This document shows positions 760 through 20,549 of a stretch of DNA of 20,549 nt, piece by piece. The stretch spans positions 1 to 20,549 of the IMG/VR virus record IMGVR_UViG_3300030385_001625; one strand, given 5' to 3'. The translations under genes and the position numbers were made by a program. The notes below the pieces were generated by a model. The model was given only the letters and a program-made list of their open reading frames with translations, was not told where the DNA came from and searched no databases. Within the stretch, counting starts at the first letter, position 1; each line of letters begins with the position of its first letter. The stretch comes from a virus.

Positions 760-1506
760 TTATACTGTTCCCTGACCTCCAATTGGTTTATTAGAGAGTA
801 TGACTGGTGAAAGAAATGCGTCTGGTGGAGTTATTTCACTAGGAGTATTTGCTGCGTCATGACACCGAGTTACTATATATAGATATAATTCTCCACTCCA
901 AGTTGCTGTACTTTGAGTAGTACCATCAGCGACTACTGATGCTGTATTTGAGGTAACAGCTATTTGACTTTGCCCGTCAGAATATACGATAAATTGGGTG
1001 TCTTCTATTTTTATTACAAAATTAGCCCCTGCTGATGAAGCACTATAATTCGAGCTACGATTATCAGCATGATTGGCACATAAAAGTAACGAATTAGTAG
1101 GAACACTAAATCCTGCTAAGTTATCTATTCCAGATACATCATCACAAATGTAAAAATAAATATTACCTGTTCTGGCATTACTACTTGTATTCACTGTATC
1201 TGGCATGGTTATTCCACTAAATGAAAAATGAATATAATTATTTCCTCTATTTAAATTATCGGTATTAAATATTTTGGTATAGTTGTAACTATATCCCGCG
1301 GCACCTGTATAATTACTTGTAAAACCTCCACGATGATATTTATTTACTGATGAAGTATGAGTGCCTGGAGTACCAGAAGTAGATAAGTCGGGTCTGTATA
1401 CGGTCCAATTATCTAAATCATCTATATCTGTAGCAGATACAGCCCACATATTTGATTCTTCACTATAATTATAGGATTGATACCTATCTGTGAATTTAAT
1501 TGCCAT
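760..1506 (-). CDS. Putative tail adhesin/spike protein
   Basis: This 248-residue protein has no membrane segment or signal peptide. It is rich in S, T, N, Y and G, a composition typical of secreted beta-sandwich or adhesin proteins. The middle (about 70-200) alternates hydrophobic and polar residues in a beta-strand pattern (for example NYIHFSFSGI and GNIYFYICDD). The start at 1506 is preceded by GAGGTG, and the N-terminal codons overlap the end of the zinc-ribbon micro-gene 1496-1627. It is the last of the chain of surface proteins downstream of the baseplate hub, so a host-contact or tail-tip decoration role is inferred from context. No fold or family can be named. Confidence 0.6.
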   Translation of the reverse strand: MAIKFTDRYQSYNYSEESNMWAVSATDIDDLDNWTVYRPDLSTSGTPGTHTSSVNKYHRGGFTSNYTGAAGYSYNYTKIFNTDNLNRGNNYIHFSFSGITMPDTVNTSSNARTGNIYFYICDDVSGIDNLAGFSVPTNSLLLCANHADNRSSNYSASSAGANFVIKIEDTQFIVYSDGQSQIAVTSNTASVVADGTTQSTATWSGELYLYIVTRCHDAANTPSEITPPDAFLSPVILSNKPIGGQGTV

Positions 1507-1627
1507 TATTATTCACCTCATGTTTCAACATTTGTGGTATTTCACATTGAGGACATTTAGAAATTAAATCCTCTGAAGCTTTATGACTTCCTTTCCAATC
1601 GCATTTTCCGCATTCAAAATCTACCAT
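1496..1627 (-). CDS. 43-residue zinc-ribbon micro-protein
   Basis: This short frame runs from ATG 1627 to TAA 1498-1496 and encodes 43 residues. It has two CxxC knuckles, C6-x2-C9 (CGKC) and C25-x2-C28 (CPQC), separated by 15 residues. This is the spacing of a small zinc ribbon or rubredoxin-like fold. Its start overlaps the end of the upstream gene (stop 1621-1623) and its end overlaps the start of the adhesin at 1506, so it fills the junction exactly. No ribosome site is clear; translational coupling is likely. Zinc-ribbon micro-proteins of this size are frequent in archaea and archaeal viruses. Whether it is a virion part, an assembly factor or a regulator cannot be told. Confidence 0.7.
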   Translation of the reverse strand: MVDFECGKCDWKGSHKASEDLISKCPQCEIPQMLKHEVNNNGN

Positions 1628-1884
1628 TGTTCAACCCCGATAACATCTAAGGTTGTGGTTCCTGAAGCAGTAATAGCTTGAACACTACTTGTTGTACTTA
1701 ATCCTAATTCAATAGACTCTCCTGCGTCCAATGGAAAATGAGAAGTTGTAGCTGCTCCGTTTAAATTAATATGACACGTAGTACCTCCTACATTTCTAAG
1801 AGTTACTAAGTATACGACTGGGCTAAGAGCAAAACTTGCGTTCACCGAACTTACTGCTAAATTACCTATTTGTGCGTTTGCCAT
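1621..1884 (-). CDS. Small beta-rich virion protein, paralogue of next gene
   Basis: This 87-residue protein is beta-rich and glycine/threonine-rich. From about residue 25 to the end it aligns with the product of 1884-2225: shared elements are TTCHINLNGAATTS versus TTCFINLDSAATTS, an aGxxxxl segment, and AITASGTTxxxxIG near the C-terminus. The shared pattern (one strand pair, then an AITASGTT hairpin) suggests a small jelly-roll or Ig-like unit found in phage decoration and tail-tip proteins. The frame starts at ATG 1884 by TAATG-type overlap with its paralogue. A structural decoration role is inferred from composition and position among adhesin genes. Confidence 0.65.
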   Translation of the reverse strand: MANAQIGNLAVSSVNASFALSPVVYLVTLRNVGGTTCHINLNGAATTSHFPLDAGESIELGLSTTSSVQAITASGTTTLDVIGVEQW

Positions 1885-2225
1885 TATGACTTGCCCATCC
1901 CTATCATATTAATATCTGTAGTTCCTGAAGCTGTAATCGCATGAACTGCTGTAACATTTGTATCAATTGACAAAGTTCCTCCAGCATATAAAGTATAATC
2001 TGAAGTAGTAGCCGCAGAATCTAAGTTAATAAAACAAGTTGTTGAACCTGTATTTTTGATTAGTATAGTATCCATTTCTTGAGCAAATGATACACTTCCT
2101 GTAACACTTGTAACTGCTAACGTAGTTTGTTCAAATGCTGTAAAGACATTCCATCCTGCTCTATTTACATCGTATCCGAAGTATACATCTCCGTCTGTCT
2201 TTGGGAATTCACTTATACCTGCCAT
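1884..2225 (-). CDS. Small beta-rich virion protein with extra N-terminus
   Basis: This 113-residue protein carries an N-terminal segment of about 30 residues (KTDGDVYFGYDVNRAGWNVF) not present in its neighbour, then a beta-rich domain that is clearly paralogous to the product of 1621-1884. Key shared residues are TTC-INL, AATTS, AITASGTT and the final IGM/IGV. The start at 2225 has a strong ribosome site (GAGGAGG) lying within the end of the 57-residue gene upstream, whose stop shares a base with this ATG. The pair looks like a local tandem duplication followed by gain or loss of the N-terminal part, which may attach this copy to another virion protein. Function unknown; structural role inferred. 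Confidence 0.65.
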   Translation of the reverse strand: MAGISEFPKTDGDVYFGYDVNRAGWNVFTAFEQTTLAVTSVTGSVSFAQEMDTILIKNTGSTTCFINLDSAATTSDYTLYAGGTLSIDTNVTAVHAITASGTTDINMIGMGKS

Positions 2226-2398
2226 TATTTAGTTTCCTCCTCATATCCTTTATTATCATAATTATATTTTGATTTAAGATTTTTCTTTATTAGCTTTAAC
2301 TTTGTTTTTGTTGATGCTGTTGCGTTTTCTAATAAGATAGATACTACTTTCTCAAGGTATCCAATTCTTTCATTTAAGTTATCAAATCTTCCTGCCAT
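2225..2398 (-). CDS. 57-residue coiled-coil micro-protein
   Basis: A frame from ATG 2398 to TAA 2227-2225 encodes 57 residues. Residues 3-26 have heptad spacing (FDNLNERIGYLEKVVSILLE), typical of a short oligomeric coiled coil. Residues 31-48 are lysine-rich, and the tail is acidic (GYEEETK). It starts one base after the stop of the spike gene 2400-3635 and ends with a TAATG overlap onto the next gene, whose ribosome site lies in its last codons. A short coiled coil beside spike genes could be a trimerisation partner or fibre chaperone. That is an inference; no family is recognised. Confidence 0.65.
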   Translation of the reverse strand: MAGRFDNLNERIGYLEKVVSILLENATASTKTKLKLIKKNLKSKYNYDNKGYEEETK

Positions 2399-2399
2399 T

Positions 2400-3635
2400 T
2401 TAATACCAATTATAGGCTGTCGCCCACTCCGTTATTTTATCAATATCAGTTAAATCTGTTCGGGTATTAACCAATTTCAACCACACATTCGTTCCTGTAT
2501 CTGAATTTCTTTGTATTATCGCATCAGTTATTGTTTCGTAATTGGTGCCACCATCATAGGATATTGAAACGACCAATGTACTTGCTGGGTCAATGATTGC
2601 GTTCCAAATGCTAATTGTATTTGTAACTGTTAATGTTGTATCTTTGAATATTAATGTTGAAGAAGTTGCCCCTTCAGCACTTAGAGTTCCTGCCGCAGTA
2701 AATCGAGGGATTGAATTATCGGTAAAGAAATCAATATCTGTTGGTAAAAATCCTGAAATAGTTGACCCACTACCATTTAATGTTGTGGCAACCCATGAAA
2801 TTGTTCCAGTATGTAATATAATATATCTTCCTTGACCTGATGAATGCCCTGGCCCACTAGCTCCATATATTTGAGCTAAACAATCTGCTGGATTACTATT
2901 TTCATCTGCGGTTAAATCTGTACCCATTTCAAAACTATTTGTATTTTGTGCTTGATTTCTTAGTGTAACCGCAGGTATATACCATGAAGATACACCATGT
3001 GTTGATGAACTATAAAGATTTGACCAACTTGAACAATCAGTATTTCCGCTAGTATCTGAAAAAGTTCCTGTATAATAACCAAATGAATGATTAGCGCCAG
3101 TATATGACGCAGTAGGTAAATTTACATATGTTCCACCTTTACCTACATCATTTGAATGTGATGATTTCATAGCTGTAATATTTGTGAAATCTAAAACTAA
3201 TTGGTCAGTACCGTCTGTACCAAAAAATAAACTTTGAATAATTTTTGCTCGTTGAACTTCGTCTGAATCTCCGCCACCGTCACCATACAAAAGCCATTTT
3301 CCAGAAGATATTTGTAAAAGTTGAGTATCATTAGATGTCCAAGTAATGTTAGCGTCATCTGCTTCGATAATAACATATTCAGTTTTGTCTATATCCGGAG
3401 TATAGTATAAATCATTTGTTGAATCATATACCCAAGTATAATTCACATCAGCACTATCTGTTTGTAAAGTATCAAATAAAAGATTCTTAACTTGTGGAGT
3501 TCCCACAGATGCTAACTTAGCATTCCATCCGTCATAATCTGAATTAAAAAACGCATTCATGGTATTCTTAAATTGTAATCCGTATGCGTTCATTAAATCG
3601 TCTGCTTCAATTATATCGCCTGTATTGACTGTCAT
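2400..3635 (-). CDS. Putative tail spike/receptor-binding protein
   Basis: This 411-residue protein belongs to the adhesin chain downstream of the baseplate hub. The N-terminus (MTVNTGDIIEADDLMNAYG, then a helical stretch with GWNAKL) resembles the N-terminal fibre-start segments of tail proteins that begin with xGDxIxAxDxN. The rest is rich in S, T, G and N with beta-strand alternation and no membrane segment. The C-terminal 90 residues contain VSISYDGGTNYETIT and later an ITEWATAYNWY end. Such GGxNYE strands are common in viral beta-sandwich attachment domains. An AAGGAG site lies within the micro-gene upstream, and its stop shares a base with this ATG. Host attachment is inferred from context; enzyme motifs were not seen. 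Confidence 0.6.
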   Translation of the reverse strand: MTVNTGDIIEADDLMNAYGLQFKNTMNAFFNSDYDGWNAKLASVGTPQVKNLLFDTLQTDSADVNYTWVYDSTNDLYYTPDIDKTEYVIIEADDANITWTSNDTQLLQISSGKWLLYGDGGGDSDEVQRAKIIQSLFFGTDGTDQLVLDFTNITAMKSSHSNDVGKGGTYVNLPTASYTGANHSFGYYTGTFSDTSGNTDCSSWSNLYSSSTHGVSSWYIPAVTLRNQAQNTNSFEMGTDLTADENSNPADCLAQIYGASGPGHSSGQGRYIILHTGTISWVATTLNGSGSTISGFLPTDIDFFTDNSIPRFTAAGTLSAEGATSSTLIFKDTTLTVTNTISIWNAIIDPASTLVVSISYDGGTNYETITDAIIQRNSDTGTNVWLKLVNTRTDLTDIDKITEWATAYNWY

Positions 3636-3760
3636 TACTCTGAGGTCTCCTTATAATTATTTATTCGGGTATCGAAAATTGATTGAATACATTCTGGACA
3701 ATAATGTTTATCTCCGATAGTATGCTCGGTTTGTTCTCCGTGATTATCGCAATTTATCAT
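3635..3760 (-). CDS. 41-residue zinc-finger-like micro-protein
   Basis: A frame from ATG 3760 to TAA 3637-3635 encodes 41 residues. Potential metal ligands are C4-x2-H7 (CDNH) and C21-x2-C24 (CPEC), with further histidines at 13 and 19. The pattern resembles a treble-clef or zinc-ribbon micro-domain. It overlaps its upstream neighbour by ATGA and its downstream neighbour by TAATG, so it fills the junction between two surface-protein genes with no spare bases. A GGAG site about ten bases upstream supports the start. It is not closely similar in sequence to the other zinc micro-protein (1496-1627), but position and size are alike. Function unknown. Confidence 0.7.
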   Translation of the reverse strand: MINCDNHGEQTEHTIGDKHYCPECIQSIFDTRINNYKETSE

Positions 3761-4713
3761 TGTGAATATACTCCTGAACCTTTAATCGCTGGAACTCCGA
3801 ATGATGCTGCTGAACTCGCTGAAGTTAATCTAATTTTATATTTTGTAGGTTCACTTGTTAACGCAGTAAAACTTCCCAAATCTCCGCCTAAAATCCAACC
3901 TGAATCTTCAGTAGCATTTTCTAATCTATGTTCGATTGTCGCTGTTGTTTCTGTTGAAGCTATCATTGATTTACCAGTTAATTTATTTACTGTTGATGAA
4001 AATGTTCCTGTCGGAATATCCATTTCAACAATTGATGAAGTTGAATTTGTAGCAGTAACTTGTGTAGCAGTTATACTTCCAGCCATAAATTCAGAAGATG
4101 GAGTAGTAATAAGTGTACTACTCGCAAAAACGGTTGTATTATCTCGTCCAATTCTTGCTACTCCTCCGGTTCTAGTTATTACGAAATCAACAGTATCTCC
4201 ACTTTCGATAACAGCACCCCAATCTGAAGCCGTTAAAGTGAATGTTTTACTAGTACTAAGTGACGGCGCTGTATCTGATACTTCACATAACACTACTGAA
4301 TTCACTGAAAAAGTGAATTTGAAAGTAGTGGTTCCTGAACTTCCATCTGGTTTATAAATTAATTCAGTAATTATACAATCATCTGTTGCGACAAAAGTTG
4401 AAGTTATACCTGTAGTGTCGGTATCATTATTTGGAGTTTCCGTTTGAGTGGTAACAGTAGTTGACCAGTTTTTACATTTATATGCTCCTGAATATCCAGC
4501 AGTAGTATTTCCTGTATTAACATAATTTTCTCTACCACTTGCGTCAATAAACGCATCAGAAAAAATATCATCTTTATTTAAACTTACGCTTACGCTTCGG
4601 TCGATTTGTTGTCTAATTTTATTTAATATTGGAAAGGTTAATAAGAATGAAAAATTAGCATTAACTTCGGTTGCGTCTGCTACCGTACCGTTCGTAAATT
4701 TATTCCAGGTCAT
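3757..4713 (-). CDS. Putative tail fibre/adhesin protein
   Basis: This 318-residue protein starts with WNKFTNGTVADATEVNANF, a familiar N-terminal signature of phage tail fibre and baseplate-attached proteins (a G-x-A-A-x-V-N-x-N-F segment). A central beta-rich domain (about 95-200) alternates strands such as TFKFTFSVNSVVLCEV and DTVDFVITRTGG, like a carbohydrate-binding or C1q-like sandwich. The C-terminal part (about 230-318) is another beta region ending IKGSGVYSQ. The start at 4713 has GAGG upstream. The gene is three bases from the CBM-like protein upstream, and its stop overlaps the micro-gene 3635-3760. Host-receptor binding is the likely role, inferred from composition and position. 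Confidence 0.65.
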   Translation of the reverse strand: MTWNKFTNGTVADATEVNANFSFLLTFPILNKIRQQIDRSVSVSLNKDDIFSDAFIDASGRENYVNTGNTTAGYSGAYKCKNWSTTVTTQTETPNNDTDTTGITSTFVATDDCIITELIYKPDGSSGTTTFKFTFSVNSVVLCEVSDTAPSLSTSKTFTLTASDWGAVIESGDTVDFVITRTGGVARIGRDNTTVFASSTLITTPSSEFMAGSITATQVTATNSTSSIVEMDIPTGTFSSTVNKLTGKSMIASTETTATIEHRLENATEDSGWILGGDLGSFTALTSEPTKYKIRLTSASSAASFGVPAIKGSGVYSQ

Positions 4714-4715
4714 TA

Positions 4716-5597
4716 TTATATTGCCTCGTGAGTAATTATGAATAACAATTCATCTGTATTACTCTTACTTATTGACGTGAATACGTCCCTACTTATTAAA
4801 AGTTCTGGTGAATCTGTGTTCACCTCTCCTACTTCTGTTAAATTCCATCCATTTGCTTGTAAACTATTTATCAAACATCTTACTGTTACTTTGTTATTTA
4901 CTGTATCAAATGTTGGATACCCTGTTACGAAAGCTGTTTGGTAATCATCAGAACTTGCTAATCTGAAATCATCAAAATTTATTCTGTCTGCTGCTACTGT
5001 ATCTGCTGCTAAATCTACATTATATTCTATTAAAGTATAATCACAGGCAGTTATTACTGGAGTTCCTGTTGTCGAACTAGCTGTAGAGCTATCAAATTTG
5101 AAATAGTTCCATCCGTTTGCTAAACTTCCAATTGCTATATCATATTGATAGTAATCAGATGCTCCTGAACCAAATCTAATACTAATCGCAGTACCTGATG
5201 CTACTAAATCTGTAACATCTGTAATATATACCCAACCCCACAGGTCTTTACTTGTAAAGTCTAAACTTGTAGTTGTTTTACTCATACTTCCTGTTGTTCC
5301 TGATGTTCCTGTTTTAGCTAAACTTAAACTTGCTGTTCCTTCTTTTTTAGTTGTTACATTTACAGCTACTACTGAATCTGTTCCAGCTGCCCAACCAGTT
5401 GTCGCATCAAAACTATCTATTGCTTCAGTACCGTAAATTGGTATTTCAGTTACTAAAGATGTATCTCCTGTTGCTGGTGTTGTAGTTCCTACTCCGATTT
5501 TAATTTTACTCGGTGCTGTTACAGTTGGACTTACCGTGTACGACCTATGCCAAAACGTATTCTTTCCTTCACTTGTAATTACTCCGCCTATTGCCAT
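4716..5597 (-). CDS. Tail protein with carbohydrate-binding-like domain
   Basis: This 293-residue protein has three parts. Residues 1-60 form a leader with GVGTTTPATGDTSL, a motif common in phage tail proteins that attach to the hub. Residues about 60-215 look like a carbohydrate-binding-module jelly roll: a FDATTGW start, a KKEGTASLSL strand, NGWNYFKFD and a final INFDDFRLA strand. This order (duplicate-like strand, W-x-Y-x-K-F-D, D-D-F-R) is typical of CBM-like modules. Residues 220-293 form a small beta C-terminal domain (TVRCLINSLQANGWNLTEVG) ending LLFIITHEA. The GGAGGG site upstream of 5597 supports the start. It directly follows the hub gene, so it may bind host surface glycan at the tail tip. 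Confidence 0.65.
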   Translation of the reverse strand: MAIGGVITSEGKNTFWHRSYTVSPTVTAPSKIKIGVGTTTPATGDTSLVTEIPIYGTEAIDSFDATTGWAAGTDSVVAVNVTTKKEGTASLSLAKTGTSGTTGSMSKTTTSLDFTSKDLWGWVYITDVTDLVASGTAISIRFGSGASDYYQYDIAIGSLANGWNYFKFDSSTASSTTGTPVITACDYTLIEYNVDLAADTVAADRINFDDFRLASSDDYQTAFVTGYPTFDTVNNKVTVRCLINSLQANGWNLTEVGEVNTDSPELLISRDVFTSISKSNTDELLFIITHEAI

Positions 5598-11766: not shown

Positions 11767-12132
11767 TTAACTTAGAAGATGTAGGGAACACATATCAAAC
11801 ATAGGTGTCGCACCATCAGGGTTTCGTGTAATGACCGTTCCTATTCTATAATCGTTTGAATCGTGAGTTACTTTATCGTTTCTGGCTACACTATCTGTTG
11901 TTTTTGCCATCATATAAGCATCGGCTTTTTCTAATACACCTTCAACATCATATTCTCTGATTGTATTTTTTCTTAAAAATATAACTGTGATTGATGTTCC
12001 AACCGCATAAGTAAGAGTTCTTTCTCCTGTGATATTGCTTATTGTTTTAGTAACTGTTTGAATAGTTACACTTTGTCCTAAATCTCCGAGTATAAAAGTT
12101 GTAAAATCAGCAGTCTTTATTCCGCTTACCAT
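11767..12132 (-). CDS. Head closure (stopper) protein
   Basis: This 121-residue protein lies between the connector and gp10-like genes, the place of the head closure/stopper protein. The pattern fits: an N-terminal region leading to QSVTIQTVTKTISNITGERTL, an SITVIFLRKN strand, a central A-D-A-Y-M-M segment, and DKVTHDSNDYRIGTVITRNP, followed by a C-terminal strand. The D-K-V-x-x-x-x-x-x-Y-R-I strand near the end is typical of these small beta-barrels. It should close the portal after DNA packaging. It starts next to the connector stop with only a weak AGGT upstream. Confidence 0.7.
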   Translation of the reverse strand: MVSGIKTADFTTFILGDLGQSVTIQTVTKTISNITGERTLTYAVGTSITVIFLRKNTIREYDVEGVLEKADAYMMAKTTDSVARNDKVTHDSNDYRIGTVITRNPDGATPMFDMCSLHLLS

Positions 12133-13305
12133 TTACGTTACCTGCCATTTAATCTCTCTACCTACAATATCTATTAATCCGATTTGGTATTTTCCTCTTT
12201 CGCCTGGTTGACTTCCCCAAATTCTCTTTTGGATTTCAATAATAGCTGCTCGCATATTTGTATAAGGTTCTCCTTTACTTATGCTCATTTCAGGTATTGT
12301 GTAAGCAGTTACATCGTCAAAGCTTCCACCAATTAATCTAACTAAACAATTGAGTGCTGTCATATTTGCTGTTAAATCTCTGACATTGTAAGGAACAGTG
12401 GCACTTCCAATATTATATCTAATTTTAACATTTTTAGTGCCATTTGGTATTGTAGAACTGATAAATGTAAGTTTTCCTATTTCACTAATTCTTACTGCTC
12501 TTGCGTTTACCCACTTACTAATTTCGTCAGCTGCGTAGACTTCTTCAAGAGCTGGTTGTGTAGTATAAGCTCCGCCTGTGATTCTAATTCTAATAAAATA
12601 TAAAGTATCTGAAGAGTCAACTGTTGTTTGTTCCCAATTTCCTGGAGCTGACCATTCTAATTGTCCGTTTGCTAATAATTTTTCAACACCAGTAAAGCTT
12701 TCAGTTACTGTTAAAGTTGACCAAGTTGCTCCGTCATAGTATTCAGTTACTACTGCTATATTATTATCTACAGGAGTATTTCCTAAATAAACATTTAACT
12801 TTTCAAATCTATTGCTTAATCCAAAGTAAATAGCATCATTAGTTGTTGGAACTGCTGCGAAAGCGTTAAAGGTAGCTGTATCAGGAGAATTAGCATCACT
12901 TGTATTATCAGTAAATACTCCTCCGTTATCAGACAATACTGAGCTGAAACTACCTACGGCGTTTATTAAGAAATAAACTCTATCAAGTCTTTGAACAGGA
13001 TAAAAATTTAATACAATATTATCTTTATGATATGGTTCTTGAGCAATAAGAATTGCTCCTTCGTTCCAGTTATAACCACCAGCAGCACCTGCTGTAGTGT
13101 CTGTAAATCTACTTGTTTGATAATCATTTCTGCTTCCATCTGAGTATTCAATAATATCTTTGCTTGTTCCCCAATATTTATTGGTGGTACTTTCTATAAA
13201 ATTCTCAGCTTCGTCGATAAATTTGTTAACATCAGCAACGCTTACTTCAGTTGAAGTAAAACCGCCCACTCTGTACACATCATCGCTGTCACAATATGTT
13301 GGCAT
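12133..13305 (-). CDS. Head-tail connector with large inserted beta domain
   Basis: This 390-residue protein has the connector (gp6/gp15-like) N-terminus: CDSDDVYRVGGF and a helix VADVNKFIDEAENFIEST followed by KYWG. The matching C-terminal helices (LTANMTALNCLVRLIGG, then MRAAIIEIQKRIWG) lie at about 310-365. Ordinary connectors are 90-150 residues, so roughly 200 residues are inserted. Residues about 150-258 form one module with TEYYDGATWSTLTV, LEWSAPGNWEQ and LYFIRIRITGG, a pattern seen in other phage surface proteins. Another piece at about 277-297 (KLTFISSTIPNGTKNVKIRY) resembles the inserts in the terminator and hub proteins. Candidate promoter B lies upstream with the ATG about 29 bases from the box, consistent with a leaderless start. 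Confidence 0.7.
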   Translation of the reverse strand: MPTYCDSDDVYRVGGFTSTEVSVADVNKFIDEAENFIESTTNKYWGTSKDIIEYSDGSRNDYQTSRFTDTTAGAAGGYNWNEGAILIAQEPYHKDNIVLNFYPVQRLDRVYFLINAVGSFSSVLSDNGGVFTDNTSDANSPDTATFNAFAAVPTTNDAIYFGLSNRFEKLNVYLGNTPVDNNIAVVTEYYDGATWSTLTVTESFTGVEKLLANGQLEWSAPGNWEQTTVDSSDTLYFIRIRITGGAYTTQPALEEVYAADEISKWVNARAVRISEIGKLTFISSTIPNGTKNVKIRYNIGSATVPYNVRDLTANMTALNCLVRLIGGSFDDVTAYTIPEMSISKGEPYTNMRAAIIEIQKRIWGSQPGERGKYQIGLIDIVGREIKWQVT

Positions 13306-13427: not shown

Positions 13428-14324
13428 TTACGATGTTAATACACTCTTCCATGTAGTTCCATCATAGAATTTTAATGTATTACTATCTCCTGAGTCAATA
13501 GCTAAAGTTCCAGTTGATGGAGTACTTGGTAAAGTTTGAGCTTTAAGTGTGAAAGTATCATTTCCGGCGTCTACTTTAATTAAATCAGCTACATTATCGC
13601 TACTAATTGAAAAATCAATATCCTCGCTATTTGGATTTACTTTAATCATGCCCTCAGTTACGTTTGTTCCGCTTGAAGCTGTAGTTTGAATGCTAAATCC
13701 TTCTTTGCTGAATGAATTTGTGCTTGCGCCTAACCAAAATGAAGTTGTATTAAATGAACCTGCGTGTCCGAATCTTATTGATTCATTACCGTAAAAATCG
13801 GTATTTCCATCTTGATTTATAAATAAAAATGCTGAACCACTTGTTGTTCGTAATTCTAATTGAGAATCTCCTGCTGCGTCGGTTGAATTAACTAACATTC
13901 CAGCTGTACCCGTAGTTGTATTTGTTAAGCTAATTGTTCCAGTTCGAGTTAAATCTCCAGTTCCAGTTATGTTTCCAGCTACAGTTATGTTTCCAGTTAT
14001 TGCTGAATCTCCTGTTCTTGTAATATCTCCTGTTCCCGTTATGTTTCCAGTTAGTGCTAAGTTTCCTGTTCTGGTAATATCACCTGTTCCAGTTATGTCT
14101 CCCGTAATGGCTGAGTCTCCCGTTCGAGTAATATCTCCTGTACCTGTTAAATCACCTGTAATTGCTAAGTTTCCGCCAAGAGTACTGTTTCCGGTTATTG
14201 CGGCTCCACCCGCAGATATTGTTAATCCATTAGAAATTGTTGCTGCGTTTAAAATAGAAATATCCCAAGCATCTATACTGGCTTTTCCGTCAAGTCTTAC
14301 ACCTTGAATTTCCCAATTTGTCAT
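13428..14324 (-). CDS. Hexapeptide-repeat fibre protein
   Basis: This 298-residue protein has an N-terminal segment (WEIQGVRLDGKASIDAWDIS), then about 16 tandem six-residue repeats (residues about 39-134) of the form G-[DN]-x-x-x-T, arranged as 18-residue units. Such repeats build triple beta-helix shafts of viral fibres. A globular middle domain follows (about 135-262). The end, residues 265-298, carries PSTGTLAIDSGDSNTLKFYDG, a signature shared with the fibre protein at 18075-18908. The start follows the repeat protein stop by one base; GAGGAAG lies about 15 bases upstream. It is a fibre by sequence pattern; attachment to head or tail cannot be told. It is the last gene of the cassette. Confidence 0.7.
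   Translation of the reverse strand: MTNWEIQGVRLDGKASIDAWDISILNAATISNGLTISAGGAAITGNSTLGGNLAITGDLTGTGDITRTGDSAITGDITGTGDITRTGNLALTGNITGTGDITRTGDSAITGNITVAGNITGTGDLTRTGTISLTNTTTGTAGMLVNSTDAAGDSQLELRTTSGSAFLFINQDGNTDFYGNESIRFGHAGSFNTTSFWLGASTNSFSKEGFSIQTTASSGTNVTEGMIKVNPNSEDIDFSISSDNVADLIKVDAGNDTFTLKAQTLPSTPSTGTLAIDSGDSNTLKFYDGTTWKSVLTS
13923..14210 (-). repeat. Tandem hexapeptide repeats (18-residue units)
   Basis: Residues 39-134 of the fibre protein repeat G-[DN]-x-x-x-T about sixteen times. Within it, four 18-residue units (51-68, 69-86, 87-104, 105-128) follow the scheme GxxxxTGDxTGTGDxTRT; the last carries a six-residue insertion (VAGNIT). The 54-base DNA periodicity is visible, but silent positions vary. 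Expected structure: a rod-like triple beta-helix shaft whose length could change by loss or gain of units. Confidence 0.8.
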
Positions 14325-14325
14325 T

Positions 14326-17300
14326 TTACGGAGTTACTTCCTCTACTACGACTCTCAGCCCCCAATCTACTTGAGCTACTGCGTTAGTCCATATAATATC
14401 TAAAGACTCTCCTATTGTTGAATCGATTATAATTTCACCATCTGGATGCCAAGAAAGGTCTGTTACTCCTAATGTTCCTGGATTTACACTCCAATAAGTT
14501 ACATTTGCTAATGGTGCGGCTAGTGAACCTAATGATACTATGAAATCGTTAGCTGTTGGTATTCCTCCGAATTTACAAGTAATTCCTAATAATCTAAACT
14601 TTGTTAATATTGGTCCTGAAATTGCTGAATTCCAAGCTATACTATTTTGAGGTAGTCCTGCTGATTGTTCAGTATAAGGTGTTATTCTTCCTCTGGCACT
14701 AACTGTCCATGCTCCTGACTGAGTAGCTGCTACAGTTCCGTCTACAGTTAAACTTCCTCCGTTATCATCTACTGATAATACTCCAGTTGAATTATTAGCT
14801 AGTGTTACTCGTTGAGCTGCGGCTTCTGTTCCACCACCTACTACAGATAAAGTTGAATTGTCGACGGTTATTGAGTTACCACCGTCATCTATACTCACAT
14901 CATTAGTTATGGTAGTTACTGTAGCTACGGTAGCTATATCCCCTATTGAATTAGTACCTGTTGGTAGTGATGCTACTACATCTACTTGAACATTACCGCT
15001 TGAGTCTGTTTTTATTTTCTGATTAGAACTTCCATCATATCCGTAAACAAGAACGCTATCATCTGCTGCGTCTAAGTCTACTTCTACATTAATTCCTTTG
15101 ATGACATTTACATCTAATCCAGTATCTGCTCCGACTGTGGTTTTAGTTACTGTTGCTAAAGCATCTGTATTAGTTTCAATGTCTGTTACTTTGGTTGCTA
15201 TTGTGGTTGTATCTGTATCTATACTGGAAAGTGTAGCCTCAGTAGCTGCGCCTGTTGGTAGTGAGATAGTTCCTGATATATCCGTTACATTCCAAGTCCC
15301 GCTTTGAGTAACTGCCCCAATAACATTTGAGCCTGTAGGAATAGCTTCTCCTAAGAATACTCCAAGCTCACGGTCTGCGTTTATCTTGAAAGCTCCGAAG
15401 TCTCCTGAATCAATTGTATCGGTAGTAAAGAATCCACCAACCATTAATCCTTTGTCTGAACCTACGGCGAAAGCACTATCATCTACATAATCTCCTTCGA
15501 TATTTGCGATTATAGTACCACTTGCTACATTTACATCCAACGCTGTTCCTGTACTGGTTACACCAGCTAATGCGTCTGTATTAGTCTCAATATCTGTAAG
15601 CTTTGTATTTGTAGTAGTAAGTTTTGTATCGATGCTTCCTGTGTCTGTTTCTACTGCTGCCAAAGTTACTTCAGTTGCTGCTCCTGTAGGTAAAGGTAAA
15701 GCAGTAGCGTCTATAGTAATAGAGTTACCACCATCTTGAATATTAACCGCACTTGCTCCAGAAGCATTATCTACAGTAACATTATGACCGTCTGCTAATT
15801 GTTTAGCAGCAGTTGCTGCTCCAGTTGGAAGACTAATTGTTCCACTTATATCACTAATGTCCCACGTTCCACTCTGTGTGACTGCTCCTATTACATTAGA
15901 ACCAGTTGGTAAAGCTTCACCTACAAATACTCCTAACTCTCTATCGGCATTTAATTTGAATACCCCGAAGTCGCCACTGTTTATTGTATCAGTAGTAAAT
16001 ACACCACCTACAGCTAATCCTTTATCGCTTGTTACTGTAAAGGCAGAATCATCCACGTAATCGCCTTCTATGTCTGCTGTAATTGTAACTGCTGAAGCTG
16101 CTATATTAACATCTAAAGCGTTGGCTGTTGAAGAAATTGAAGTGCCAGAACCGTCTTGTAGCTTTATGCTCTTATCCCAAAGGGTATGTCCACCAGAGCC
16201 AGGAATCGCTATTCCCATTATTGCTTGTGTGTCAGTTCCAGCACCTGTATCAAGGTCATCGGTATCTATCTCGGTTACTCCGACTGTTCCATCGACTGTG
16301 ATGCTACCGCCATTATCTGAAATAGGCATTTCGCCCCCAGCGGTAATTGAAAGGTCATTTGTTCCATCTGTTATTTTCGCCTTTCCGATTATATTTGTAC
16401 CTGCGTTTAATCCTACGTTCCAAGTACCTGATTGCGTAACTGCTAATGTTGCGTTAGTTACGTTGGTATCTACTGTATTTTCTACAGTTGTTGCTAATTC
16501 TCGACTTGCGTTGAGTTTGAATACACCGAAATCCCCAGAGTCTATTGTGTCAGAAGTAAATATACCTCCTACTGCCAGACCTATATCTGTTCCTACGGTA
16601 AATGCTGAATCGTCTACATAATCTCCTTCTATATTTGCGGTAACAGTTCCACCAACTAAGTTTACATCTAATCCTTGGTCTGCGCCTACCGTAGTAGAAG
16701 TAATAGCTGTTCCTGAACCATCATAAAGATTAGTTTTGATATTATTTGTTATTGAAGTTAATGTAGTTAATGTAGCTATGTTTCCAATACTGTTTGTTCC
16801 TGTTGGAATACTTGAAGCTAAATCTACTTGAAGTTGACCTGAAGCATCTGTTGATAGTTTTTTATTGTTAGCTCCATCCCATCCGTATACTAAAATATCG
16901 TCTGTACTTTCGGATAAAGCTGGTTGAGTTAAAACATCTACTTGTAGATTTCCTGAGACATCTGTTTTGATTTTTTGGTTAGAACTACCGTCCCATCCAT
17001 ATACTAAAATTGAATCATTAGATTCGTCTATTGTTACTGCTAATGTTCCTGAAGCAATATTAATATCTAAAGCACCCCCTGTGCTTCCGATGGAAGTTCC
17101 TGCTCCATCACTTAAATTAACATCTACTGGATTTGTAATGCTTGTAAGTGTAGTGAGTGTCCCTATATTCCACGTACCACTTTGAGTAGCACTTACTGTT
17201 CCATCTACGGTTAAGCTACCTCCTGCGTCATCAACACTTAAAGTAGTTCCACCATCATCAACGGTAATAGAATTACCACCGTCATCAATACTTACATCAT

Positions 17301-17790
17301 TAGTAATTGTGGTTAATGTGGTTACTGTTCCTATATTCCATGTGCCTGATTGTGTAACGGCTACTGCGTTTGTTATTGAATCTACTTTTAATTGACCATT
17401 ACTTGCGACTGATAAAAATTGTAGGTCTGTACCATCTGTTCCTAAGACTACATTTCCTACTTGTGCGGCTACTGTTGTTCCGTCTGTGTATTGAGAACCG
17501 CTTCCAATTGAACCTGCGTTTTCTACAACAACCGAAAGTTCTCTATCCGCATTTATTTTAAATACTCCAAAATCACCAGAATCGATTGAATCTGTTGTAA
17601 AGATTCCACCCATAGCATTTCCTTTATCGGACGCTACAGTGAACGAGCTATCATCAGTATACTCTGTGGCTGAAGAACCTCCTCCGCCTCCACCAACTGT
17701 CCTTACGACATCTACCATTACGGCAGGTTCAGAGCCTACTTGCTTAAACTTCTCAAATTCTCTATCGTCCCGATTTCCAGGTAATGCCAT
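14326..17790 (-). CDS. Giant modular repeat adhesin (1154 residues)
   Basis: This is the largest protein of the window. Residues 1-20 (MALPGNRDDREFEKFKQVGS) match the N-terminus of the 154-residue protein at 18908-19372. A glycine linker follows (33-38). The body (40-1050) is built of three repeat types: module A, four copies of about 40 residues (46-85, 393-432, 580-619, 770-809; core GDFGxFKxNAxREL); module B, three copies of 28 residues (259-286, 297-324, 911-938; core LVYGWDGSSNQKIKTD); and six short TQSGTW-type motifs. Residues about 1060-1154 form a C-terminal domain also shared with the 154-residue protein (TCKF, PDGEIII, LDIIWTN). No catalytic motif, membrane segment or signal was seen. 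It looks like a long surface fibre or adhesin in a cassette beside the capsid gene. No clear ribosome site. Confidence 0.7.
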   Translation of the reverse strand: MALPGNRDDREFEKFKQVGSEPAVMVDVVRTVGGGGGGSSATEYTDDSSFTVASDKGNAMGGIFTTDSIDSGDFGVFKINADRELSVVVENAGSIGSGSQYTDGTTVAAQVGNVVLGTDGTDLQFLSVASNGQLKVDSITNAVAVTQSGTWNIGTVTTLTTITNDVSIDDGGNSITVDDGGTTLSVDDAGGSLTVDGTVSATQSGTWNIGTLTTLTSITNPVDVNLSDGAGTSIGSTGGALDINIASGTLAVTIDESNDSILVYGWDGSSNQKIKTDVSGNLQVDVLTQPALSESTDDILVYGWDGANNKKLSTDASGQLQVDLASSIPTGTNSIGNIATLTTLTSITNNIKTNLYDGSGTAITSTTVGADQGLDVNLVGGTVTANIEGDYVDDSAFTVGTDIGLAVGGIFTSDTIDSGDFGVFKLNASRELATTVENTVDTNVTNATLAVTQSGTWNVGLNAGTNIIGKAKITDGTNDLSITAGGEMPISDNGGSITVDGTVGVTEIDTDDLDTGAGTDTQAIMGIAIPGSGGHTLWDKSIKLQDGSGTSISSTANALDVNIAASAVTITADIEGDYVDDSAFTVTSDKGLAVGGVFTTDTINSGDFGVFKLNADRELGVFVGEALPTGSNVIGAVTQSGTWDISDISGTISLPTGAATAAKQLADGHNVTVDNASGASAVNIQDGGNSITIDATALPLPTGAATEVTLAAVETDTGSIDTKLTTTNTKLTDIETNTDALAGVTSTGTALDVNVASGTIIANIEGDYVDDSAFAVGSDKGLMVGGFFTTDTIDSGDFGAFKINADRELGVFLGEAIPTGSNVIGAVTQSGTWNVTDISGTISLPTGAATEATLSSIDTDTTTIATKVTDIETNTDALATVTKTTVGADTGLDVNVIKGINVEVDLDAADDSVLVYGYDGSSNQKIKTDSSGNVQVDVVASLPTGTNSIGDIATVATVTTITNDVSIDDGGNSITVDNSTLSVVGGGTEAAAQRVTLANNSTGVLSVDDNGGSLTVDGTVAATQSGAWTVSARGRITPYTEQSAGLPQNSIAWNSAISGPILTKFRLLGITCKFGGIPTANDFIVSLGSLAAPLANVTYWSVNPGTLGVTDLSWHPDGEIIIDSTIGESLDIIWTNAVAQVDWGLRVVVEEVTP
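14977..17016 (-). repeat. Module B repeats within the giant adhesin
   Basis: Three 28-residue copies at 16933-17016, 16819-16902 and 14977-15060, core LVYG[WY]DGxxNxKxxTDxSG followed by x-Q-V-D-[VL]. The first two are adjacent (30-base spacer); the third lies far downstream, interleaved with module A. After the second and third copies a shared PTGTNSIGxIAT tail appears. Interleaving of A and B modules indicates growth by modular duplication. Confidence 0.8.
15364..17655 (-). repeat. Module A repeats within the giant adhesin
   Basis: Four copies at 17536-17655, 16495-16614, 15934-16053 and 15364-15483. Each encodes about 40 residues beginning D-D-S-x-F and containing GGxFTxDxIxSGDFGxFKxN and REL. 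The spacing between copies is 1041, 561 and 570 bases. The last two copies continue into a matching downstream stretch (PTGSNVIGAVTQSGTW, then ISGTISLPTGAAT). Protein conservation is strong while many silent positions differ, so the copies are not recent DNA duplications. Confidence 0.85.
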
Positions 17791-17808
17791 TTGATTATTA
17801 ATTTGAAC

Positions 17809-18075
17809 TTACAACCAGCTTGGTTCGGTTGGAATATTGTCGTAAGCATCATTAGCATCTGGATATGCTGTAGGTAAATCTCGCCATGCTTGTCTGTAAG
17901 CTTTTAATTCGGTTTGTTTTTCAGTTGTTAAATTATCGAATCGGTCAGATAGCATCCATAAATCTGTTTTTTGAAGTAAGCCTATTCTAATTGACTTTAT
18001 ATCTCCCCAACTTGCGTCAAAGGTTTCAGTCTTTATTTTAACATCGTCTCTAAAAATGAATCTTTTAATTACCAT
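17809..18075 (-). CDS. Tail fibre assembly chaperone-like protein
   Basis: The start is taken as ATG 18075 (88 residues), whose A is shared with the stop of the fibre gene upstream (TAATG); an upstream in-frame ATG at 18132 would lie deep in that gene and adds an unlikely sequence. Residues about 25-70 match the phage tail assembly chaperone pattern (Phage_tail_APC type): IRIGLLQKTDLWMLSDR, then a helix and YRQAWRDLP, followed by a proline-rich end IPTEPSWL. These proteins are often encoded next to fibre genes and help fold or attach fibres. Here it sits between the fibre at 18075-18908 and the giant adhesin, implying that one of these is a true fibre. Family match is by motif. Confidence 0.75.
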   Translation of the reverse strand: MVIKRFIFRDDVKIKTETFDASWGDIKSIRIGLLQKTDLWMLSDRFDNLTTEKQTELKAYRQAWRDLPTAYPDANDAYDNIPTEPSWL

Positions 18076-18908
18076 TATGAATATACCACTACTATTCGAG
18101 GAACGGTTGGTGTCCCTCCACCAACACTCCAACCCGTTTCGGCATAAGGTCCTGCGTCAAATACACCGCCTACTGCGGGAGTTCTCCAAAGAATACAATA
18201 GGTATTATTAAATTGAGAAGTACCAACTGTGTTTCCATAAGTTCCTTGAATTGCTTGTTTACCCATTATTTGTAAAGAATCAGGTGTAGTCATTAACGCT
18301 ACATCTGTTGAATAAACCATTGCTGTCCAATACCATGTTCCTGCGGTGAGTGTTACACCGGCAGGTGACCAAGAATATACTCCTGTTGTTGTTCCGATTG
18401 CTCCGAAATTATTTGAATCTAATAAAGTACTAGGTAATCCTGTGTCACTATTCGCACTATAAAGTGCTACTTTCCAATCTGTGGTTCCGTTACCTCCACC
18501 AACTCTCCAGTTCACTGAATCTACGGTTCCACCTCCGAAACTATAAAATGGATAAAAATTTACATCATTTGTATTATAATTTGCTTTATAGTCATAATTC
18601 GTATGTAGTCCATTATTAGGATACATCGGCCATGCGAATTGAGAATAACCTGAACCCGATGCTTTGTAATCAATATAAAATGTTTCTGGTCCGCTATTTG
18701 CTGGCATTCCTGCTGCCCCGCCGCCACCACCTGCGTCGGTCCATGTAGTTCCATCATACCATTTTAGTTTGTTGGAATCTGCTGAATCTATTGCTAGTTC
18801 TCCAGTAGATGGACTGCCTGAAAGTGCTGCTGCGTCTTTAACTAATTTATTTTTAACTGTAATATTATCGGCGTCTATTTGTTCTTTTCCAGAAATTCTT
18901 AGTGTCAT
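18075..18908 (-). CDS. Fibre protein with C-terminal receptor-binding-like domain
   Basis: This 277-residue protein begins with a short fibre stem (LRISGKEQIDADNITVKNKL). Residues 33-58 hold PSTGELAIDSADSNKLKWYDGTTW split here by its end, the tail-fibre signature also found at the C-terminus of the fibre at 13428-14324. A glycine linker (60-64) leads to a Y/W/N/G-rich domain (about 75-277) with beta-strand alternation and aromatic pairs (GTWYWTAMVYS, NNTYCILWR), as in receptor-binding tips. GAGGT lies ten bases upstream of ATG 18908, which overlaps the preceding stop. Together with the chaperone-like gene after it, this is the best fibre candidate of the cassette. Confidence 0.7.
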   Translation of the reverse strand: MTLRISGKEQIDADNITVKNKLVKDAAALSGSPSTGELAIDSADSNKLKWYDGTTWTDAGGGGGAAGMPANSGPETFYIDYKASGSGYSQFAWPMYPNNGLHTNYDYKANYNTNDVNFYPFYSFGGGTVDSVNWRVGGGNGTTDWKVALYSANSDTGLPSTLLDSNNFGAIGTTTGVYSWSPAGVTLTAGTWYWTAMVYSTDVALMTTPDSLQIMGKQAIQGTYGNTVGTSQFNNTYCILWRTPAVGGVFDAGPYAETGWSVGGGTPTVPRIVVVYS

Positions 18909-19372
18909 TATAATACCTCATAAGTTACAGTTACTCCGTATGTTCGAGTCTCTGTGTTTGTGAATGTTATATCTAAATCTTCAGTGGTTCCTAAAATTAT
19001 TAATTCACCATCTGGAATATATGCTATATCTGTTGCTGTTGAGGCTGAAGGGTCTACACTTAAAATTTCAGTTGTATAAGCTGCTGTTGAATTTGATTTC
19101 TTGATTACAAAGTTTTCAGAAGTTGTTGGTGCTGCTGAAAAATGACATGTAACGCTTAATATCTTCCATTGGGCAGATGCTCCAGGTGCTAAATTAATAG
19201 ATATTGCTCCGCTTCCTGTAGTTTCATTCAAAGAAATTGATCGAGGTGTTGAAGTTGCTGAAATATTTGTTCCGTTTGGATTTACCACCGCTACAGCAGG
19301 TAAATTTGCTACTGTTGTGCTTTCAACAAATTTTTGAAACTCTTTATCGGTTCTATTATCTGGTATTGCCAT
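18908..19372 (-). CDS. Mini-adhesin sharing both ends with the giant repeat protein
   Basis: This 154-residue protein starts with AIPDNRTDKEFQKF, matching ALPGNRDDREFEKF of the 1154-residue protein. Its residues about 64-154 match that protein's last 95 residues: VTCHF/ITCKF, PTTSENFVI/PTANDFIV, YIPDGELII/HPDGEIII and LDITFTN/LDIIWTN. It lacks all repeat modules, so it is a minimal form of the same architecture. The N-terminal dozen residues may be an attachment or assembly tag, and the C-terminal beta domain a cap or decoration unit. It is the first gene of the cassette, behind candidate promoter C and without a Shine-Dalgarno site. Confidence 0.7.
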   Translation of the reverse strand: MAIPDNRTDKEFQKFVESTTVANLPAVAVVNPNGTNISATSTPRSISLNETTGSGAISINLAPGASAQWKILSVTCHFSAAPTTSENFVIKKSNSTAAYTTEILSVDPSASTATDIAYIPDGELIILGTTEDLDITFTNTETRTYGVTVTYEVL

Positions 19373-19426
19373 ATTATTTTAATAAATATATACTAACCTT
19401 ATATTTAAAGTTAGTTCTATATTTAT
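19373..19426 (-). promoter_or_regulatory. Candidate promoter C with flanking dyad
   Basis: This 54-base gap precedes the fibre cassette. The minus strand holds TTTAAATA at 19402-19409, preceded by ATATAGAACTAAC. The box starts 37 bases upstream of ATG 19372 and there is no Shine-Dalgarno site, consistent with a very short leader. The box is bracketed by an exact hexamer dyad, ACTAAC (19410-19415) and GTTAGT (19392-19397), which could be an operator or a chance hairpin. The AAATATAGA element upstream of the box resembles ATATACAGA in candidates A and B. Confidence 0.5.
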
Positions 19427-19663
19427 TTAATCCTTCTCCTCTACTTCTTCTGCTTCTTTTTTATCTTCATCCAATTTAGTCTTTTTCTTTTTAGCTACTT
19501 TTTTAGCAGGTTTGCTTACAACCAATTCAAAGTATTCGTTAGCATATTTTGTTCCAGCAGGTATTTTCTTTATTTCCCCACCGTCAAAGTCTAACCACTT
19601 TCCTTTGCTAAGCTGAATTGCTCTATAGTAGCTCATCTTGTTTTTTACTTGTATATCTTTCAT
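19427..19663 (-). CDS. Small protein with charged lysine/glutamate tail
   Basis: This 78-residue protein has a compact N-terminal half (MSYYRAIQLSKGKWLDFDGG, then EIKKIPAGTKYAN and an EYFELVV strand) and a C-terminal tail of alternating lysine and acidic residues from about residue 52. The N-terminal part has the look of a small SH3-like barrel. GAGGAAAG precedes ATG 19663. It lies between the capsid-proximal beta proteins and the fibre cassette. Charged tails of this type appear in small head-associated proteins, but no family can be assigned. Confidence 0.6.
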   Translation of the reverse strand: MKDIQVKNKMSYYRAIQLSKGKWLDFDGGEIKKIPAGTKYANEYFELVVSKPAKKVAKKKKTKLDEDKKEAEEVEEKD

Positions 19664-19676
19664 TTTTAGTCTTTCC

Positions 19677-19913
19677 TCAGAATCCGTGAATAAGAATATT
19701 CACGTAGTCATCATTTGTTCCTGTAATAGTTAACGTACTACCAGTCCAAGTAAATGTTGTTGCGTTAGTACCTTCTGCTACTGCTGATACAAATTGAAGG
19801 GTATTGAACCTTTCTGAAATGTATGTGCTTGTTGCGCCTGTTAATTGTACTCTAACTACTTCACTACCTGGGTCTTCACTACTTGCGTGAACTATGTTGT
19901 CTACACTTGCCAT
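19677..19913 (-). CDS. Small beta-rich capsid-proximal protein
   Basis: This 78-residue protein is beta-rich: VVRVQLTGATSTYI, LQFVSAVAEG, TFTWTGSTLTITG and a closing YVNILIHGF strand. The last part resembles the end of the product of 20006-20296 (SGTTVTLDAGG, then YALLVLGQ), so the two may be distant relatives. It follows a hairpin terminator and has AAGGAG (19927-19933) ahead of its ATG. Decoration or minor capsid protein is a guess from size, composition and nearness to the capsid gene. Confidence 0.6.
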   Translation of the reverse strand: MASVDNIVHASSEDPGSEVVRVQLTGATSTYISERFNTLQFVSAVAEGTNATTFTWTGSTLTITGTNDDYVNILIHGF

Positions 19914-20314: not shown

Positions 20315-20549
20315 TTATGCTATCGCGTATATCATAGCACAGAATTGTTCTGCTTGTAATACCAAACTTCCATACCATTTAAGCATGAATTTGTTGCTAT
20401 CACTAGTTCTTGCTAAGTCTTGATATGTCAAGTCTTGTAGAACTGCCATGAATAGGACGCTAGTGTCCAATACAAATAATCTTCGGCTTCCACTTGTGGT
20501 TGAAAGGAATTTAGTAAAAATTACTGGGATTCCTTCAAATTCATAAGTT
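20315..20549 (-). CDS. Probable major capsid protein, C-terminal part only
   Basis: The visible frame enters from the window edge and ends at TAA 20317-20315, giving 77 residues. It reads YEFEGIPVIFTKFLST, then RRLFVLDTSVLFMAVLQDLT and a closing helix-strand region with KFMLKWYGSLVLQAEQF. The G-I-P-V-I strand, the L-x-x-x-x-L-D-T loop and the final W-x-G-x-L-V-L-Q-A strand fit the axial and peripheral domains at the end of HK97-fold capsid proteins. Position before a small decoration-like gene, and ahead of connector and tail genes, agrees. The N-terminal arm, and any protease or scaffold gene, lie outside the window, so a minor head protein cannot be excluded. Confidence 0.6.
   Translation of the reverse strand, partial: TYEFEGIPVIFTKFLSTTSGSRRLFVLDTSVLFMAVLQDLTYQDLARTSDSNKFMLKWYGSLVLQAEQFCAMIYAIA

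Follow-up and report, generated by a model that had tools for sequence, protein, structure and literature searches.

The stretch of DNA analysed here (the window) comprises a virus record of 20.5 kb whose structural genes lie on the minus strand, and the features relevant to this study are as follows.

20315..20548, minus strand: MCP of the SU10_MCP type, C-terminal 77 residues (the full gene is in contig L002)
20006..20296, minus strand: 96-aa all-beta head protein, candidate decoration/cement protein (sequence comparison and model)
19677..19913, minus strand: 78-aa beta-rich head-module protein (two copies in L007)
19427..19663, minus strand: 78-aa lysine-rich head-module protein (ORF list, comparison with relatives)
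18908..19372, minus strand: 154-aa short adhesin, with the anchor segment NRTDKEFQKF joined straight to a C-terminal jelly-roll-like domain, without a stalk
18075..18908, minus strand: 277-aa fibre, partner of the 154-aa adhesin
17809..18075, minus strand: 88-aa tail-fibre-assembly chaperone-like protein (PF16778)
14326..17790, minus strand: 1154-aa long adhesin, with the anchor NRDDREFEKF, a repeat stalk (unit DDSAFTV...GDFGVFK, four copies) and a C-terminal jelly-roll-like domain
13428..14324, minus strand: 298-aa fibre that contains an 18/54-nt tandem repeat and accompanies the long adhesin in relatives
12133..13305, minus strand: 390-aa head-tail adaptor candidate, the downstream border of the cassette (similarity to the L010 adaptor)
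3757..5597, minus strand: post-hub tail fibres of 293 and 318 aa, a tail-linked contact system

An earlier note on this DNA had placed a five-gene, 6-kb adhesin/fibre cassette between capsid and connector genes, and our analysis bears this out, since the ORFs are real and both borders could be identified. Contig L002, which overlaps the window with 99.4% identity over 2338 bp, carries in order TerL, a portal with a MuF domain, products of 69 and 201 aa, the prohead protease, the MCP and products of 96, 78, 78, 154 and 277 aa; its portal matches Phage_portal plus Phage_Mu_F and its protease Peptidase_S78 (Pfam), and the MCP of this head type (type A) matches SU10_MCP (PF17236) with an E-value of 2.7e-23 and 83.3 bits against a curated cut-off of 24.1 (Pfam). 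The 96-aa head protein is kept in all relatives of head type A, and stands at 31% in L007 and L010. Fold comparison of its model (pLDDT 84) yielded general beta folds and nothing more specific, the best Z being 7.2 to tail-fibre and pyocin-fibre domains, so that the label of decoration protein is a guess; a search of PDB sequences gave no relatives of it. On the other side, the 390-aa product is related (33%) to the 472-aa adaptor of L010, which matches the PHROG head-tail adaptor; used as the sole search query it found no relatives, and together with L010 it found L010's own record and one doubtful match, L040. Beyond it lie Hc1-like, HK97-gp10-like and tail tube genes. Given the L002 head genes on one side and the adaptor and tube genes on the other, the 6 kb of adhesin/fibre genes truly part the head from the connector.

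The cassette proteins and the post-hub fibres

The cassette reads as two adhesin and fibre pairs, a short one (154 and 277 aa) accompanied by the chaperone-like protein and a long one (1154 and 298 aa). The two adhesins have in common an N-terminal segment (MAIPDNRTDKEFQKF and MALPGNRDDREFEKF; BLASTP E 6e-5, hence not chance) and a C-terminal domain (33% identity, BLASTP E 7e-9), and the stalk of the long adhesin holds four copies of a DDSxFTV...GDFGxFK unit, at residues 44, 391, 578 and 768. The two fibres, of 277 and 298 aa, have in common a 47-residue motif (57%) and the motif PSTGxLAIDSxDSNxLKxYDGTTW. In the model of the 154-aa protein, residues 43-154 form a beta-sandwich (pLDDT about 70-84), and the N-terminus is unstructured apart from one short helix at the motif, which fits a segment that folds on a partner. 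The top row of the VIA-align comparison for the C-domain was a turret chain of HFTV1 (8qpg_TD; Z 9.9, rmsd 2.7, 96 residues), tied within one Z unit with unrelated jelly rolls; as these score nearly alike, the turret match is merely compatible with a relationship. Moreover, no PDB chain, HFTV1 turrets included, matched the 154- or 1154-aa protein in sequence. A foreign origin of the cassette, considered because of its higher GC, was rejected: GC3 is alike (0.15-0.25 versus 0.14-0.30 elsewhere), and the rise in GC thus stems from a protein composition rich in Thr, Ser, Gly, Ala and Asp.

The chaperone-like gene announced in the earlier note is present, but its product has 88 aa and not 107, since the in-frame ATG lies at 18075, where it overlaps the stop codon at the end of the 277-aa gene. 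The product scores 30.1 bits against Pfam PF16778 (Phage_tail_APC; cut-off 26.6) and also matches PHROG tail-fibre-assembly families.

The second fibre set reported after the hub (760-5597) is indeed there and is unlike the cassette in sequence, BLASTP between the two sets giving no match at E <= 0.01. The 293-aa fibre and the hub are found together in L049, and L010's record has an N-terminus like that of the 318-aa fibre. Since two post-hub members thus recur beside the hub in tail-sharing relatives, the two fibre sets are different modules. Within the post-hub region, two small proteins (87 and 113 aa; window 1621-2225) are encoded in tandem and related to each other (44%, E 7e-16). L010's record (L035 6681-8453) also contains a 590-aa phosphoesterase-like ORF with an apparent intein-like insertion (HCFDEETELLTKRGFLKVDDIKEGD...).

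Position of the adhesin in related viruses

A scan for the adhesin repeats gave 16 loci; with the window, the adhesin follows the MCP gene in 15 records, which amount to fewer independent cases since several of those with a type B head are near-identical, and it follows the portal gene in two (L057 and L058). In those of the 15 records, window included, that extend as far as the connector, it also precedes the connector. The records comprise head types A (window, L003, L005, L006), B (L044, L050-L053, L056, L059), B' (L046-L048; MCP identity to B 53-59%) and C (L049). Their connectors belong to at least three types (w390, c119 and c208); between the MCPs of types A, B and C no sequence similarity was detectable. 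No relative of the adhesin was found after the tube or the hub in the scanned loci. Comparing gene order in relatives was a check put forward in the earlier note, and the cassette adjoins the MCP gene (or the portal gene) in every related record that shows its position. It does not move with the tail genes only: it stays beside the capsid genes, and capsid and connector/tail genes are exchanged independently around it.

Several records depart from the arrangement of the window. In L057 (8477-13457) and L058, a 765-aa relative of the adhesin and an 893-aa gene stand straight behind the portal gene, at a different site of the head module. In L016 and L022, with an MCP of the Phage_capsid_2/4 kind, the product of the second gene behind the MCP has the anchor motif at its N-terminus; the anchor and a large C-terminal region form one 784-aa protein in L016 (9411-11765) and separate genes (154 aa and 340+ aa) in L022 (1-2223). 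In MW202601, a virus for which a 'phage stabilization protein' is annotated, a relative of the repeats lies between the MCP gene and the gene of that protein. The cassette site of the distant relative L010 (11799-12752) is taken by a 317-aa protein that apparently starts with a signal peptide or transmembrane segment, and adhesins are absent there. L006 (15114-15473) and L047 (7093-7416) have a very basic HNH-like small gene between the fibre and connector genes, preceded by three small genes, two of them apparently coiled-coil.

The closest case is L003 (MCP 99%), in which the long adhesin is kept at 93% DNA identity and a 422-bp stretch with one 122-aa gene (11935-12357) stands in place of window 17792-19474, that is, of the 154-, 277- and 88-aa genes; the exchange is clean, with flanking stretches of 89% and 93% DNA identity. 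Since the chaperone block is absent in L003 and no chaperone was found in L006, the 1154/298 pair can do without it. Hence, the proposal that the chaperone assists the whole set holds poorly for the long pair, and the 277-aa fibre, judged from the order of the ORFs, is its likely client, which the 88-aa protein most likely folds.

Relatives without the cassette and the likely host

Annotated relatives of the type A MCP are mostly haloarchaeal (HHTV-2 29%, HCTV-2 25%; best E 2e-14), with weaker matches to some Rhizobium phages and one faecal phage. For the portal (597 records, mostly bacterial), the most significant among the matches listed was Halorubrum tailed virus 28 (E 1e-25), and the best matches of the tail tube were HCTV-16 (E 5e-18) and HCTV-1 (E 9e-18). 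The type B MCP matched HGTV-1 only (E 2e-4), and the nearest annotated relatives of type C are HVTV-1/HCTV viruses and one Methanofastidiosa virus (E 2e-43). Most relatives of the head and tail-tube proteins belong to haloarchaeal viruses, which makes an archaeal host probable, and the virus would be a tailed virus of archaea. A marine origin may be guessed from IMG study numbers. In HHTV-2 and HCTV-2 short genes lead from the MCP gene to that of the tail tube, none of them adhesin-sized, and HGTV-1, HVTV-1 and HCTV-1 likewise have no adhesin-sized gene behind the MCP. Provirus copies were sought in cellular genomes by MCP alignment, and none of the 40 pattern matches was a relative. Matches to the anchor pattern were also discarded: the six in genome contigs were all chance reading frames or stop-truncated, and in viral contigs most of those away from the named loci were due to chance or to portal-MuF genes.

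Anchor segments, C-domains and fibres

Six genomes with both borders known allowed 15 pairwise comparisons. The anchor (the first 30 adhesin residues) had a mean identity of 70% in the two pairs with the same head and different connectors, 22% in the four pairs with the same connector and different heads, and 30% in the nine pairs in which both differ. The last 95 residues of the adhesin (63, 64 and 59%, in the same order) and the first 25 residues of the fibre (58, 61 and 50%) were without such a pattern, and the identities of these two correlated with each other at 0.98 over the 15 pairs. These comparisons suggest that the short N-terminal segment, whether NRxDxEFxKF or another, tracks the head genes and not the connector, and that the C-terminal domain of the adhesin is swapped freely, jointly with the next fibre gene. 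An anchor that follows the head, together with outer parts that are exchanged, is the pattern expected of a capsid-matched anchor. Given that the 5' end of the adhesin gene lies nearest to the MCP gene, recombination inside the repeats could produce the same tracking by mere linkage. Linkage does not seem to be the whole cause, however, because the distance between the fibre gene and the connector is similarly small (tens to about 1000 bp) and the fibre gene does not track the connector.

The DREFxKF motif is common to heads whose MCPs have no detectable similarity, and the N-termini of B and B' differ; hence, the partner of the anchor would not simply be the MCP sequence. A simpler claim drawn from L006 and L010, that the cassette moves with the MCP, was abandoned, as L046, L047 and L049 show moves between capsid types; since the cassette also crosses capsid types, only its N-terminal segment appears to follow the head. 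Stretches with 98% DNA identity to the adhesin repeats of the window occur in L050 (10763-11010, 248 bp) and L048 (9382-9552, 171 bp), and such identity between viruses with unlike heads indicates that the exchange is recent. The IMG sample number of L050, 3300023192, is also that of L002.

Where the cassette proteins may sit on the virion

We consider it fairly probable that the cassette encodes capsid-bound head fibres, used for a first contact besides the tail fibres. This is what the earlier note had suggested; the position of the cassette and the tracking of the head by the anchor speak for it, and the physical location, oligomeric state and function of the proteins are what we infer from the genes. 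Both adhesins (154 and 1154 aa) would dock on the capsid by their first ~30-40 residues; the repeat region would make up a long stalk in the 1154-aa protein, and each of the two would expose its C-terminal domain as a beta-sandwich. The fibre encoded after each adhesin (277 and 298 aa) would add a further fibre, possibly carried on the adhesin C-domain. The capsid-borne system may then serve a first, reversible attachment, and the post-hub tail fibres the committed step.

The same genes might encode tail fibres or side fibres that merely lie at the boundary of the head and connector modules, which we regard as unlikely. The chaperone matches tail-fibre-assembly families and the repeats of the 298-aa protein match tail-fibre PHROGs, as such a reading would have it, and gene position is no proof of place in the virion, given that in HFTV1 the genes of the turrets (gp30/31) stand apart from that of the MCP (gp19; PMC12494034). 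However, a common connector type does not raise anchor identity, the scanned loci hold no relative of the adhesins after the tube or hub, and the tail module already has its own, sequence-unrelated fibres. Appendages of the neck or collar, attached to portal or adaptor proteins as in phi29 or the lactococcal neck passage structures, would suit a cassette that adjoins the adaptor gene and, in L057/L058, an adhesin relative that adjoins the portal gene; neck passage structure proteins with carbohydrate-binding modules do exist (PMC6669499). Such an appendage would need an anchor matched to the connector type, and this was not found in pairs sharing that type; on the contrary, the anchors of L006 and L047 are 13% identical despite connectors that are 92% identical, and those of L046 and L047 are 83% identical despite different connectors. 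Hence, we think a neck or collar location quite unlikely, with the reservation that attachment to the portal itself is compatible with the data, because portal and MCP types travel together.

It is highly improbable, in our opinion, that the products decorate the capsid so as to stabilise or shield it instead of serving adhesion, even though the jelly-roll-like C-domain resembles a trimeric cement protein (KHP40, Z 8.7) and the cassette comes after the small beta head proteins. Long repeats of variable copy number, a fibre behind each adhesin and a chaperone are typical of host-contact proteins, as is the fast exchange of distal parts between capsid types.

Should the cassette indeed encode a module of head fibres, adhesion by the capsid would be common among related viruses, differently built and exchanged between unlike capsids. 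The anchor segment, stalk repeat, socket and fibre would give a sequence handle for finding similar systems and for asking whether two-step adsorption is common in archaeal tailed viruses. We tentatively speculate that archaeal tailed viruses share an exchangeable head-fibre system, consisting of a head-matched anchor, a repeat stalk that varies in length, a jelly-roll-like socket and, docked on it, a matched second fibre; this system would be one that is swapped among unlike capsids and supports adsorption by the head and then by the tail.

Comparison with known systems

In phi29, gene 8.5 comes after the MCP gene 8, and its product gp8.5 is a dispensable head fibre (Pfam PF11133). The cassette resembles this arrangement in that a fibre gene adjoins the MCP gene, but none of its proteins matched PF11133 at E <= 0.1. 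The 88-aa protein is akin to Phage_tail_APC (PF16778) in scoring above the Pfam cut-off and in standing behind a fibre gene; in contrast to that family, its gene lies in the head-connector interval and not in a tail-fibre cluster. Head spikes of the Rhodobacter gene transfer agent provide, in the summary given by PMC9973310, capsid-borne adhesion followed by tail attachment. By this description, the order of capsid adhesion and then tail is like the role proposed for the cassette. We know of no repeat-stalk or chaperone cassette in the Rhodobacter gene transfer agent.

HFTV1, a Haloferax siphovirus, touches its host head-first in 50-70% of particles (PMC9973310), and for its turrets a carbohydrate-binding module has been proposed, the turret head protein having no homologues found in other haloarchaeal viruses (PMC12494034). 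The likeness to the cassette lies in a head-borne contact device (gp30 base, gp31 head) and in the jelly-roll-like domain (the tied match with Z 9.9); a repeat stalk, on the other hand, is not described for the turrets, and their genes are away from that of the MCP. In crAss001, residues 1-38 and 1-58 attach the head fibres to hexons of the capsid (PMC10172136). Unlike the virus described here, crAss001 is a bacterial podovirus, and in the cassette one anchor motif occurs in a short and a long protein. Nevertheless, the crAss001 proteins gp21 (a trimer) and gp29 (a dimer) have short N-terminal segments that resemble the putative anchors of the cassette adhesins, and each virion bears two different head fibres (PMC10172136).
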